Source: Tissierella sp. Yu-01
GTDB taxonomy: Bacteria > Bacillota > Clostridia > Tissierellales > Tissierellaceae
Assembly: GCF_029537395.1 (NCBI RefSeq)
Contig: NZ_CP120677.1
Location: forward strand, 2,380,566-2,444,565
Direction of reading: 5' to 3'
DNA length: 64,000 nucleotides
Position 1 is the stretch's first letter; each line of letters begins with the position of its first letter. Below, one piece after another: positions 33,631-43,692 of this stretch. Below the pieces are notes generated by a model, which saw only the letters and a list, made by a program, of their open reading frames with translations, ran no database searches and was not told where the DNA came from. Both the position numbers and the translations under genes were made by a program.

Positions 33631-33665
33631 GTTTTACTAAGTAACAAAATATATTGTAATACGAA

Positions 33666-33904
33666 ATAATGACGGGAAGAGTAGGATAAAAGCTTATTCA
33701 ATAGAGAGCTGGGTAAGGTGAAAGCCAGTGTTTAGGTTTATCTGAATATGGCCCCTGAATTTTACAGTCTAATAGGCTGTAACGGATATAGCCGTTATAC
33801 TATATGGTGAAAAACCTATTGAGATTTAAATCGTGAGATTTAGATAAATTAGAGTGGTACCGCGAATTCAACCTTCGTCTCTATGTGAGTCGAGGGTTTT
33901 ATTA
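33666..33904 (+). promoter_or_regulatory. T-box riboswitch upstream of metG (methionine-tRNA sensing)
   Basis: A T-box leader senses uncharged tRNA and prevents termination when methionyl-tRNA is short. The conserved T-box AGAGTGGTACCGCG is at 33851-33864. Stem I features include GGGAAGAGTAGG near the start and GGTGAAAGCC (about 33717-33726). The putative specifier codon is ATG (33748-33750) in the context CTGAATATGGCC, matching the downstream methionyl-tRNA synthetase. The terminator AACCTTCG...CGAGGGTT followed by TTATT ends near 33901; the T-box sequence can compete with it as an antiterminator. Confidence 0.93.
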
Positions 33905-41545: not shown

Positions 41546-41626
41546 AAAAAACCCGAGATACTTCACTAAAGTTCAGCATGACATTCTTGTCATTCCGATC
41601 GCAGCTGAGGAATCTCGGGTTTTTTC
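41546..41626. repeat. Dispersed repeat, inverted pair acting as probable terminator (copy 11)
   Basis: AAAACCCGAGATACTTCACT...GCATGACA pairs with TGTCATTCCGATCGCAGCTG...AATCTCGGGTTTT. The long hairpin is followed by a T run, directly after the YvlD-like gene. Confidence 0.85.
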
Positions 41627-41773: not shown

Positions 41774-42070
41774 ATGTTAATAGAAGTTACTGATAAGGCT
41801 AAAATGGAACTTAAAAAAGTAATAGAAACTAAAAAAACAGAGAAACCACTAAGAATTTATGTTGCATCTTATGGCTGAGGCGGCCCATCATTTGGGTTGG
41901 CTCTGGATGAGCCTAAAGAAGACGACGAATCACTTAAGGTTGATGATTTTGACTTTGTAATCGAAAATGGTCTAAGTAATAATTACGGAAAATTTACCGT
42001 AGATTATGGTGATAGCTGGTTAAGAAGAGGTTTTACTGTAACCCCGGACAGAGGTGGATCGGGCTGTTAA
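41774..42070 (+). CDS. HesB-like selenoprotein (IscA-related), UGA read as selenocysteine
   Basis: A 98-residue HesB/IscA-fold protein whose codon 35 is TGA (41876-41878). The frame runs through it: VASYG-U-GGPSFGLALDEP, then DFVIENGLSNNYGKFTVDYG, and the C terminus PDRGGSGC. HesB-like selenoproteins with Sec in this YGUGGPSFGL motif are known in Clostridia. Sec35 aligns with the first cluster-ligand Cys of IscA. A stem-loop follows the UGA, as bacterial Sec insertion requires. ATG at 41774 follows AGGAGG by seven bases. Conventional annotation would split or miss this gene. The likely role is in iron-sulfur, sulfur or metal handling. Confidence 0.9.
41879..41913 (+). promoter_or_regulatory. 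Candidate bacterial SECIS stem-loop
   Basis: Directly after the UGA, GGCCCATC (41882-41889) can pair with GATGAGCC (41906-41913) with one mismatch, leaving a 16-base G/T-rich loop. This is the place and size expected for a bacterial SECIS element recognised by SelB. Confidence 0.65.
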
Positions 42071-42073
42071 CAA

Positions 42074-42104
42074 AAAAAGATAAGCTTTTTGCTTATCTTT
42101 TTTT
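42074..42104 (+). terminator. Intrinsic terminator after the HesB-like gene
   Basis: AAAGATAAGC (42076-42085) pairs with GCTTATCTTT (42091-42100) across TTTTT, followed by TTTT. Confidence 0.85.
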
Positions 42105-42131
42105 GTTCAATAGCTCTCTTTGTGTTATAAT
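42103..42131 (+). promoter_or_regulatory. Predicted promoter of the mgtE leader transcript
   Basis: TTGTTC (42103-42108) and TATAAT (42126-42131) are 17 bases apart. Transcription would begin about 33 bases before the leader ORF. Confidence 0.6.
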
Positions 42132-42170
42132 TAGATAGAAAATAAACAAAATATGAAAGGAGTGAGGATT

Positions 42171-42254
42171 GTGGATTCGAGTCCTTTGCCCAAACAGATA
42201 CAATTAAATAATGAGGAAGAACCACAATCTGATCCTTTGTTGTGGTCTTCCTAA
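42171..42254 (+). CDS. Candidate leader peptide upstream of mgtE
   Basis: A 27-codon ORF starts with GTG, eight bases after AAAGGAG (42156-42162), and ends with TAA 14 bases before the mgtE ATG. The peptide (MDSSPLPKQIQL, then NNEEEPQSDPLLWSS) has four prolines and an EEEP acidic-proline stretch. Acidic and proline-rich nascent chains destabilise ribosomes at low Mg2+, the basis of MgtL-type sensing upstream of Salmonella mgtA. The second half of the ORF coincides with a 13-bp hairpin (42214-42252). A regulatory role is inferred; homology to MgtL is not claimed. Confidence 0.55.
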   Translation: MDSSPLPKQIQLNNEEEPQSDPLLWSS

Positions 42255-42268
42255 GAAGGAGGAAGATT

Positions 42269-43606
42269 ATGAATGAAAATGAAATCCTACAGCTTATAGA
42301 AGGAAAAAAATATAAGCAATTAAAAAATGTCCTATCTGAGATGAATGAGGTAGACGTAGCTGAGATATTAAATCCTCTTGATCCAAATACCACATTGTTG
42401 ATATTTAGGATGCTTCCAAAGAATTTGGCAGTTGACGTATTTGCTCATTTCTCTGTAGAGCAGCAAAGAGACATAATACATGCTGTGACAGATAAGGAGT
42501 TAAACTATATATTAGATGAATTATTTTTTGATGATATGATTGATATGATTGAAGAAATGCCAGCTAATATAGTGAGTAAAATACTTGAAAACTCTACTCA
42601 GGAGGAAAGAAATCTAATAAATCAATTCTTAAAGTATCCAGTTGATTCGGCTGGAAGTATAATGACCATCGAGTATGTTGAGCTTAGAAAATCTATGACT
42701 GTAAAAGAAGCTCTAGCTCATCTTAAAAAGATTGGATTGGATAAGGAAACTATCTATACGTGTTATGTAACAGATAGGAAAAGGAAATTACATGGTATTG
42801 TATCTTTAAGAAAATTAGTAGTATCAGATGATGATATTTTAATTGAGGACTTAATGGAAAGTGAAGCAATATTTGTAAATACACATGATGATCAAGAAAC
42901 AGTAGCAAATGTATTTAAAAAATATGGATTTTTAGCATTACCTGTTGTAGATAATGAAAATAGACTAACAGGAATTATAACGATTGATGATATTGTAGAT
43001 GTAATAGAACAAGAGGCTACAGAAGACTTTCAAAGGATGGCTGCCATGGCTCCATCAGAAAGTGCATATTTAGATACGAATGTATTTGAATTAGCAAAAC
43101 ATAGAATAACATGGTTATTGATATTAATGTTATCCGCAACTTTTACTGGAAGAATAATAGGTAAATTTAATGATATGTTACAATCAATTGTGATTCTAGC
43201 TTCATTTATTCCTATGCTTATGGATACGGGTGGGAATTCTGGAAGTCAGTCATCTACACTTATTATTCGTGGACTTGCAACAGGAGAAATATCCCTAAAG
43301 GATGGAGCAAAGGTGTTATGGAAAGAATTTAGAGTAGGATTATTAGTAGGGATAACTCTTTCTTTAACAAATTTTTTAAGGTTATTGTTCTTAGAAAAAG
43401 TAGAATTACTAATAGCATTAACTGTATCCTTAACCCTAATAGTTACTGTTATGGTTGCTAAGATGATAGGTGGAATTTTACCAATCATAGCAAAGTTCTT
43501 TAAGATAGACCCAGCTATAATGGCAGGTCCATTGATAACTACTACGGTAGATGCTATTAGTTTAACTGTATTTTTCACAATAGCAACTGCATTATTAGGA
43601 TTATAA
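42269..43606 (+). CDS. mgtE: Magnesium transporter MgtE
   Basis: A ~445-residue MgtE-family Mg2+ channel. The N-terminal superhelical domain (about 1-125, EMNEVDVAEILNPLDPNTTL) is followed by two CBS domains (about 130-250). A plug helix leads into five TM helices (about 285-445), with conserved MDTGGNSGSQSSTLIIRGLA and GPLITTTVDAISLTVFF. MgtE gates closed at high cytosolic Mg2+ through its N and CBS domains. ATG at 42269 follows AGAAGGAGGAAG. It is preceded by a possible leader peptide rather than an M-box riboswitch. Gene end and convergent chemoreceptor are separated by a repeat hairpin. Confidence 0.95.
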   Translation: MNENEILQLIEGKKYKQLKNVLSEMNEVDVAEILNPLDPNTTLLIFRMLPKNLAVDVFAHFSVEQQRDIIHAVTDKELNYILDELFFDDMIDMIEEMPANIVSKILENSTQEERNLINQFLKYPVDSAGSIMTIEYVELRKSMTVKEALAHLKKIGLDKETIYTCYVTDRKRKLHGIVSLRKLVVSDDDILIEDLMESEAIFVNTHDDQETVANVFKKYGFLALPVVDNENRLTGIITIDDIVDVIEQEATEDFQRMAAMAPSESAYLDTNVFELAKHRITWLLILMLSATFTGRIIGKFNDMLQSIVILASFIPMLMDTGGNSGSQSSTLIIRGLATGEISLKDGAKVLWKEFRVGLLVGITLSLTNFLRLLFLEKVELLIALTVSLTLIVTVMVAKMIGGILPIIAKFFKIDPAIMAGPLITTTVDAISLTVFFTIATALLGL

Positions 43607-43611
43607 AACAC

Positions 43612-43692
43612 AAAAAACCCGAGATTCCTCGGCTACGCTTGGAATGACAGAGTCTCTGTCATCCTGAGCACTAGCGAAGGATCTCGGGTTTT
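43612..43692. repeat. Dispersed repeat, inverted pair as bidirectional terminator (copy 12)
   Basis: AAAAACCCGAGATTCCTCGG...GGAATGACAGAG pairs with CTCTGTCATCCTGAG...GAAGGATCTCGGGTTTT. The symmetrical hairpin has A and T flanks and sits exactly between convergent mgtE and the H-NOX chemoreceptor gene. Confidence 0.87.

Follow-up and report, generated by a model that had tools for sequence, protein, structure and literature searches.

The mgtE locus and its leader

The window analysed here, a 64,000-nucleotide stretch of the Tissierella sp. Yu-01 genome, carries on its forward strand a gene for the Mg2+ channel/transporter MgtE (42269-43606; TIGR00400, 512 bits, with MgtE_N, CBS and MgtE domains). 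This gene is preceded on the same strand by an upstream open reading frame (uORF) of 27 codons plus stop (42171-42254), which begins at a GTG (42171-42173), ends at a TAA (42252-42254) and encodes the peptide MDSSPLPKQIQLNNEEEPQSDPLLWSS, with a conserved N-terminus, MDSSPLP, at 42171-42191. The stop lies 14 nt before the mgtE ATG (42269), and these coordinates bear out the initial annotation, which had described a 27-codon GTG ORF with a strong Shine-Dalgarno sequence (SD) at this distance from mgtE. Three further signals on the forward strand were read from the sequence: the uORF SD, AAAGGAG (42156-42162); the mgtE SD, GGAGG (42258-42262); and a probable -10 box, TATAAT (42126-42131), with a TG upstream at 42123-42124. 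A consensus promoter scan of the mgtE leader found nothing; 14 of the 26 family leaders have an exact TATAAT ahead of the uORF, with 3.95 expected. From the probable transcript start to mgtE, the predicted leader is about 130 nt long.

The upstream gene ends at 42070 and is followed by a terminator-like hairpin that reaches to about 42105. This gene (41774-42070, forward strand) encodes a HesB/IscA-like selenoprotein with an in-frame TGA; when the TGA is read as Sec, the product scores 86 bits against NCBIfam IscA_HesB_Se. Standard gene callers would break this gene up. Two similar imperfect palindromes (AAAAACCCGAGAT...ATCTCGGGTTTT; 41546-41626 and 43612-43692) lie one on each side of the mgtE region and resemble a dispersed repeat or a terminator-like mobile element. 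The window also contains a T-box leader (33660-33885, forward strand; 121.7 bits).

The M-box (RF00380), a different RNA, precedes the same Bacillota transporter genes, often just upstream of a uORF of this kind. No covariance match to it was found in the leader, the window or the whole genome, in agreement with the initial annotation, which had seen none before mgtE. The search itself works, as it recovered M-boxes from B. subtilis and from 103 of the 299 phylum genomes. M-boxes are absent from the window genome and from 19 of 22 good-quality genomes of its family, and none of those that the family does possess was seen before mgtE. A transcript from the TATAAT would begin near 42138, which leaves an M-box no room. 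No other Rfam family matched in the mgtE leader, and the M-box and other Rfam families were rejected as its identity.

Selection on the reading frame and N-terminus

The loci compared come from two sources, genome contigs and whole genomes of the window's family, which includes Tissierella and Soehngenia. A loose nucleotide pattern found the leader ORF in 46 of 61 distinct mgtE upstream regions. Because this pattern required GA at codon 2 and CC at codon 5, the counts at those two codons (46/46) are partly selected. At positions outside its demand, codon 3 is Ser in 42, codon 6 is Leu in 38 and codon 7 is Pro in 37 of the 46 leaders. The peptides open with M-D-S-x-P-L-P and diverge afterwards; the conserved residues are D2-S3-x-P5-L6-P7, with prolines 5 and 7 the best conserved among them. 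Part of the Asp2 conservation may reflect RNA pairing, because this codon partly overlaps strand A of the RNA discussed below.

The frame and N-terminus of the leader ORF are under selection, beyond chance. All 46 uORFs stay open through codon 22, against 11.4 expected from base shuffling (maximum 19), while the other two frames do so in 2 and 6 of 46 leaders. Over codons 3-7, synonymous differences per codon pair (0.37-0.38) exceed non-synonymous ones (0.28-0.29), and the corresponding values in the other frames are 0.09 vs 0.60 and 0.01 vs 0.67. Variation in these codons falls mainly on the third position (0.57 vs 0.26 and 0.16 per site). Over codons 8-13 the relation is 0.04 synonymous vs 0.88 non-synonymous. 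The initial annotation had staked its reading on a frame that is conserved in relatives, with synonymous changes, and on a leader free of M-boxes, and this is what we found.

An SD, an open frame and a conserved N-terminus would also suit a functional small protein, for example a partner of MgtE, rather than a leader. However, the residues past codon 7 are not conserved, as the excess of non-synonymous change shows, and the class-level copies that we examined all lie directly upstream of MgtE; the probability that we give to a functional small protein is close to negligible.

The conserved residues are not those first singled out. The initial annotation took EEEP and SDP as the key segments, yet EEEP occurs only in the closest relatives and SDP only in the window genome. 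Both are ruled out as a functional motif by their lack of conservation beyond the closest relatives, and their codons fall within strands B and C of the RNA. What stands of the proposed likeness to the acidic and proline-containing leader peptide mgtL is that the N-terminus is conserved and that the layout fits the Salmonella leaders; the motif is instead the first seven residues. The window peptide, with one acidic residue in its first 14, is weaker than MEPDP or MDPDP, and its two separated prolines would be a mild hindrance to ribosomes.

Within the order, a covariance model of the leader matched 80 of 249 genomes; in samples of the class and the phylum it matched 50 of 391 and 12 of 398, respectively. 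It was mainly the matches above about 30 bits that were followed. The class-level loci examined (L109-L133) all lie directly upstream of an MgtE gene. At some phylum-level loci the next gene encodes an MgtE_N protein and the one after it an Nramp-type transporter; at one other (L143), the leader match is weak and the neighbour has no MgtE match. Within the window's order, a weak match (L171, genome G048) precedes a CorA-like gene, with the uORF MDEGPGLPYF.

Mutually exclusive helices and ribosome position

Four forward-strand segments of the leader can pair in alternative ways. Strand A (42156-42174) comprises most of the uORF SD (42156-42161) and the start region (42166-42174). Strand B (42222-42238) pairs with both: CCACAATCT (42222-42230) with 42166-42174, and TCCTTT (42233-42238) with the SD. 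In the rival fold, 42222-42228 of strand B pair with strand C (TTGTGGTCTTCCT, 42240-42252), which can alternatively pair with strand D (AGGAAGATTATGA, 42260-42272), a segment that holds part of the mgtE SD region and the start codon. The B:C hairpin (42214-42252) joins 42214-42228 to 42239-42252 through 14 bp with one bulge, and in the window it reaches -17.7 kcal/mol (z -4.6; 0 of 200 shuffles as good). The hairpin that the initial annotation placed over the second half of the ORF is real, but that description was incomplete, as the hairpin represents only one of the two states of an RNA switch.

Covariation was counted on an alignment of 35 leaders. Helix A:B is paired in 92.7% of cells and shows 38 double changes, B:C in 79.7% and shows 47. 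For each helix, none of 500 shuffles did as well, and slid controls gave 24-58% for A:B and 49-57% for B:C; the B:C counts exclude a second alignment (A2), in which the register slips by one column. Alignment columns 93-98 are common to A:B and B:C, and the two helices are therefore mutually exclusive. Tests that do not depend on the alignment gave an A:B better than dinucleotide shuffles in 41 of 44 leaders and a B:C hairpin better than shuffles in 43 of 46. In twenty class-level leaders, which were found with a model containing A:B, this helix is paired in 96.7% of cells. For the window leader as a whole, the predicted fold (z -4.6) combines A:B with C:D, a helix of 13 bp that takes in the mgtE AUG and some of the mgtE SD region. 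C:D is significant against chance in only 10 of 46 leaders, which rules it out as a universal element.

Exclusive helices with covariation would also be expected if the RNA itself sensed Mg2+ as a small, riboswitch-like two-state fold, with the ORF incidental or a mere supply of ribosomes, and a new element of this type would need no Rfam family. However, outside the helices conservation peaks in a coding stretch, where third positions are 2-3 times as variable as first and second ones, the uORF frame is open in every leader, and the alignment shows no conserved loop or junction fit for an aptamer. We consider a sensor made of RNA alone very unlikely.

Control at the level of transcription was also considered. 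No intrinsic terminator or attenuator was found in the mgtE leader, and an intrinsic attenuator was rejected for want of a terminator. Rho-dependent attenuation, as in mgtL, would have full translation of the uORF expose a Rho site and early drop-off hide it; the genome does contain rho (613 bits), and the lack of an intrinsic terminator in the leader also speaks for this account. Against it, the leader is short, at about 130 nt, and in the window fold it is the mgtE start in particular that becomes buried, which points to translational control. We judge Rho-dependent attenuation very unlikely as the explanation, though Rho, being present, may contribute at the level of transcription.

Placing a ribosome on the early codons, in computation, raised the accessibility of the mgtE SD in 21 leaders and lowered it in 3. 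The predicted change in the window is from 0.15 to 0.71; the mean shift is modest, from 0.33 to 0.41.

Computation establishes the conserved frame and N-terminus, the exclusive helices, the lack of an M-box and the association with Mg2+ transporter genes. By analogy with mgtQ and mgtL, the most suitable reading is that the leader ORF acts in cis to make mgtE translation respond to Mg2+, and we regard this as rather probable. We infer that the uORF is translated, that Mg2+ is the signal, that ribosome destabilisation is the sensor, and the direction of control. In the resting mRNA, the start of the uORF would be masked by A:B; the window and some relatives would in addition have the mgtE SD and AUG masked by C:D. 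A ribosome occupying the first codons would hold A:B open. At low Mg2+, ribosomes may falter or drop off at D2-x-x-P5-L6-P7 and remain at the 5' end, where they would allow B:C to form, freeing the mgtE SD so that MgtE could be made. When Mg2+ is ample, ribosomes would traverse B and C to a stop beside or beyond the mgtE start, breaking B:C; they would cover that start as they finish, and A:B and C:D could re-form afterwards, keeping mgtE expression low. Of the 46 leaders, 24 have the uORF stop codon 0-20 nt ahead of mgtE and 10 have a uORF that extends into the gene; a ribosome that reaches the end would thus sit on or pass over the mgtE start, as expected if full translation is repressive.

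The same geometry could instead reflect simple translational coupling or occlusion, in which the uORF gates mgtE while the peptide does not sense Mg2+, and D2, P5 and P7 set ribosome speed according to EF-P status, proline-tRNA or growth rate. The 24 closely spaced stops are compatible with this account, as is the rank of prolines 5 and 7 as best conserved residues, and Salmonella mgtP is stated to respond to charged tRNA-Pro (PMC8092293). However, the genes downstream of such uORFs belong to four Mg2+ transporter families, with no proline or amino-acid genes among them; the ten uORFs that run into mgtE disfavour reinitiation; and several uORFs behind M-boxes (MDDPD, MDPDG) are more acidic than proline-rich. 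We find coupling without Mg2+ sensing unlikely, though it deserves serious consideration.

The closest parallel to the Mg2+-responsive leader that we favour is Salmonella mgtQ, an 8-codon ORF before mgtB, where stem-loops 1:2 and 3:4 compete with 2:3 and the mgtB SD is located in stem-loop 3:4 (PMC8092293). Experiments have proven this mechanism, in which the Asp2 and Glu5 codons of mgtQ abort translation, upon which 2:3 forms and MgtB is made (PMC8092293). The single Pro of mgtQ acted only via RNA pairing, a point against our reading. In the window, too, a short ORF with its own SD and Asp at codon 2 precedes the gene for a Mg2+ transporter, and A:B, C:D and B:C correspond one to one to 1:2, 3:4 and 2:3 of mgtQ. 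In contrast to mgtQ, the window ORF belongs to another phylum, precedes a channel rather than the P-type ATPase MgtB, is longer and spans B and C, and has prolines 5 and 7 instead of Glu5. It also lies in a 5' leader, whereas mgtQ lies between two genes, and its response to Mg2+ is inferred.

The Salmonella and E. coli leader mgtL, a 17-codon ORF before mgtA (PMC11282234, PMC6460261, PMC8934632; peptide sequence in PMC8934632), contains an EPDP motif at which ribosomes drop off at low Mg2+ (PMC11282234). Like it, the leaders described here have an acidic second residue and alternating early prolines (MDSGPLP, MDPDPGSS) in a Mg2+ transporter leader; unlike them, mgtL acts by Rho-dependent transcription termination and has four prolines and two acidic residues. 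The traits that the window shares with leaders of the mgtQ/mgtL type are an SD-led short ORF before a Mg2+ transporter gene, conserved acidic/proline first codons under coding selection, with one acidic residue only, and alternative RNA folds predicted to depend on ribosome position. Sequestration of the transporter SD and start, a trait of mgtQ, is clear in the window fold but significant in only the 10 of 46 leaders noted above. We assume that the Bacillota leader ORF is convergent with enteric mgtL and mgtQ rather than related by descent. A structured mgtE leader that includes the SD and start codon has also been described in Thioalkalivibrio, as the riboswitch candidate SRC-65-1, in one genus only and with no uORF described (PMC11109978); the window leader resembles it in covering the mgtE SD and start and differs in having a uORF.

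Acidic/proline uORFs behind M-boxes

An M-box lies directly upstream of the leader in many outgroup loci and in Geosporobacter. We looked behind Bacillota M-boxes for SD-led ORFs of 8-60 codons with Asp or Glu at codon 2 and Pro within codons 3-7. Such a uORF follows the M-box at 46 of 100 fetched loci, as compared with 2.3 in shuffles (sd 1.4, maximum 8), and at 37 of 88 once 12 loci from hand-picked genomes are set aside. These counts are raw, uncorrected for relatedness, from genomes drawn evenly from the phylum. As a control, 1 of 30 SAM riboswitches from the same phylum has such a uORF behind it. The peptides include MDPDPGSS, MDDPDADL, MDDPYPGH, MDAGPS, METDPGRS and MDSGPVSRQDW, and in several (MDDPD, MDPDG) acidic residues outnumber prolines. 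The genes that follow encode four unrelated kinds of transporter, namely MgtE, CorA (TIGR00383, PF01544), an MgtA-type P-type ATPase, and an MgtE_N protein with Nramp; the Mg2+ P-type ATPase call rests on best matches to NF011702 and TIGR01524, which for this partial protein fall below the cut-off. A:B-type pairing is significant in only 18 of 47 leaders in the broad M-box set, and we therefore do not extend the two-state switch to all M-box uORFs; we claim it for mgtE leaders of the window's order and related classes.

A conserved uORF behind an M-box is also found in M. tuberculosis, where uORF2/Rv1805A has a conserved N-terminus, a nearly invariant proline 7 and anti-SD/anti-anti-SD pairing (PMC12810186). 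It is described as mycobacteria-specific, with a peptide of unknown function (PMC12810186); the window differs in lacking the M-box and in the ORF itself. Our searches of the open-access literature turned up no report of such uORFs in Bacillota.

The observation made in the window is real and belongs to something larger than the initial annotation saw. Its interpretation is partly borne out: as far as the anatomy goes, the type of element was recognised correctly, whereas the important residues were misplaced and the relation to the M-box was incompletely drawn. An independent sensor may operate at this locus, where the M-box is missing, but many Bacillota uORFs sit directly behind one. Ribosome faltering as a way to sense Mg2+ has so far been described for a few enteric leaders. 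We give even chances to the possibility that Mg2+ homeostasis in Bacillota generally includes a layer of nascent-chain sensing, with acidic/proline ORFs before MgtE, CorA, MgtA-type and MgtE_N+Nramp genes, often in tandem behind an M-box; in the window's family, where the M-box is absent, the leader ORF would be the only recognisable RNA-level sensor for mgtE. Such sensing, if it recurs ahead of four transporter families in another phylum, would become a general principle. It would also add a second sensor to many genes that have so far been read as M-box-only, and many independent sequences could then reveal which nascent residues matter.

Individual loci show further arrangements. Three in the window's family (L153, L265, L266) have an M-box and then a very short uORF, MDSGPS(S/C)xYIEEG, with a gene for an MgtA-like Mg2+ P-type ATPase about 190 nt past it. 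Geosporobacter (L028, L029) has tandem mgtE genes, each with a leader ORF of the MDSSPLP/MEGSPLP type, and an M-box only at the first copy. At L254, L256 and L257, a long G-rich/C-rich helix (GTGGAGGGGTGCTAA...TTAGCACCCCTCCAC), which may be a further expression platform, separates the M-box and the uORF MDSGPVS(R/K)QDW from an MgtE_N-type gene.
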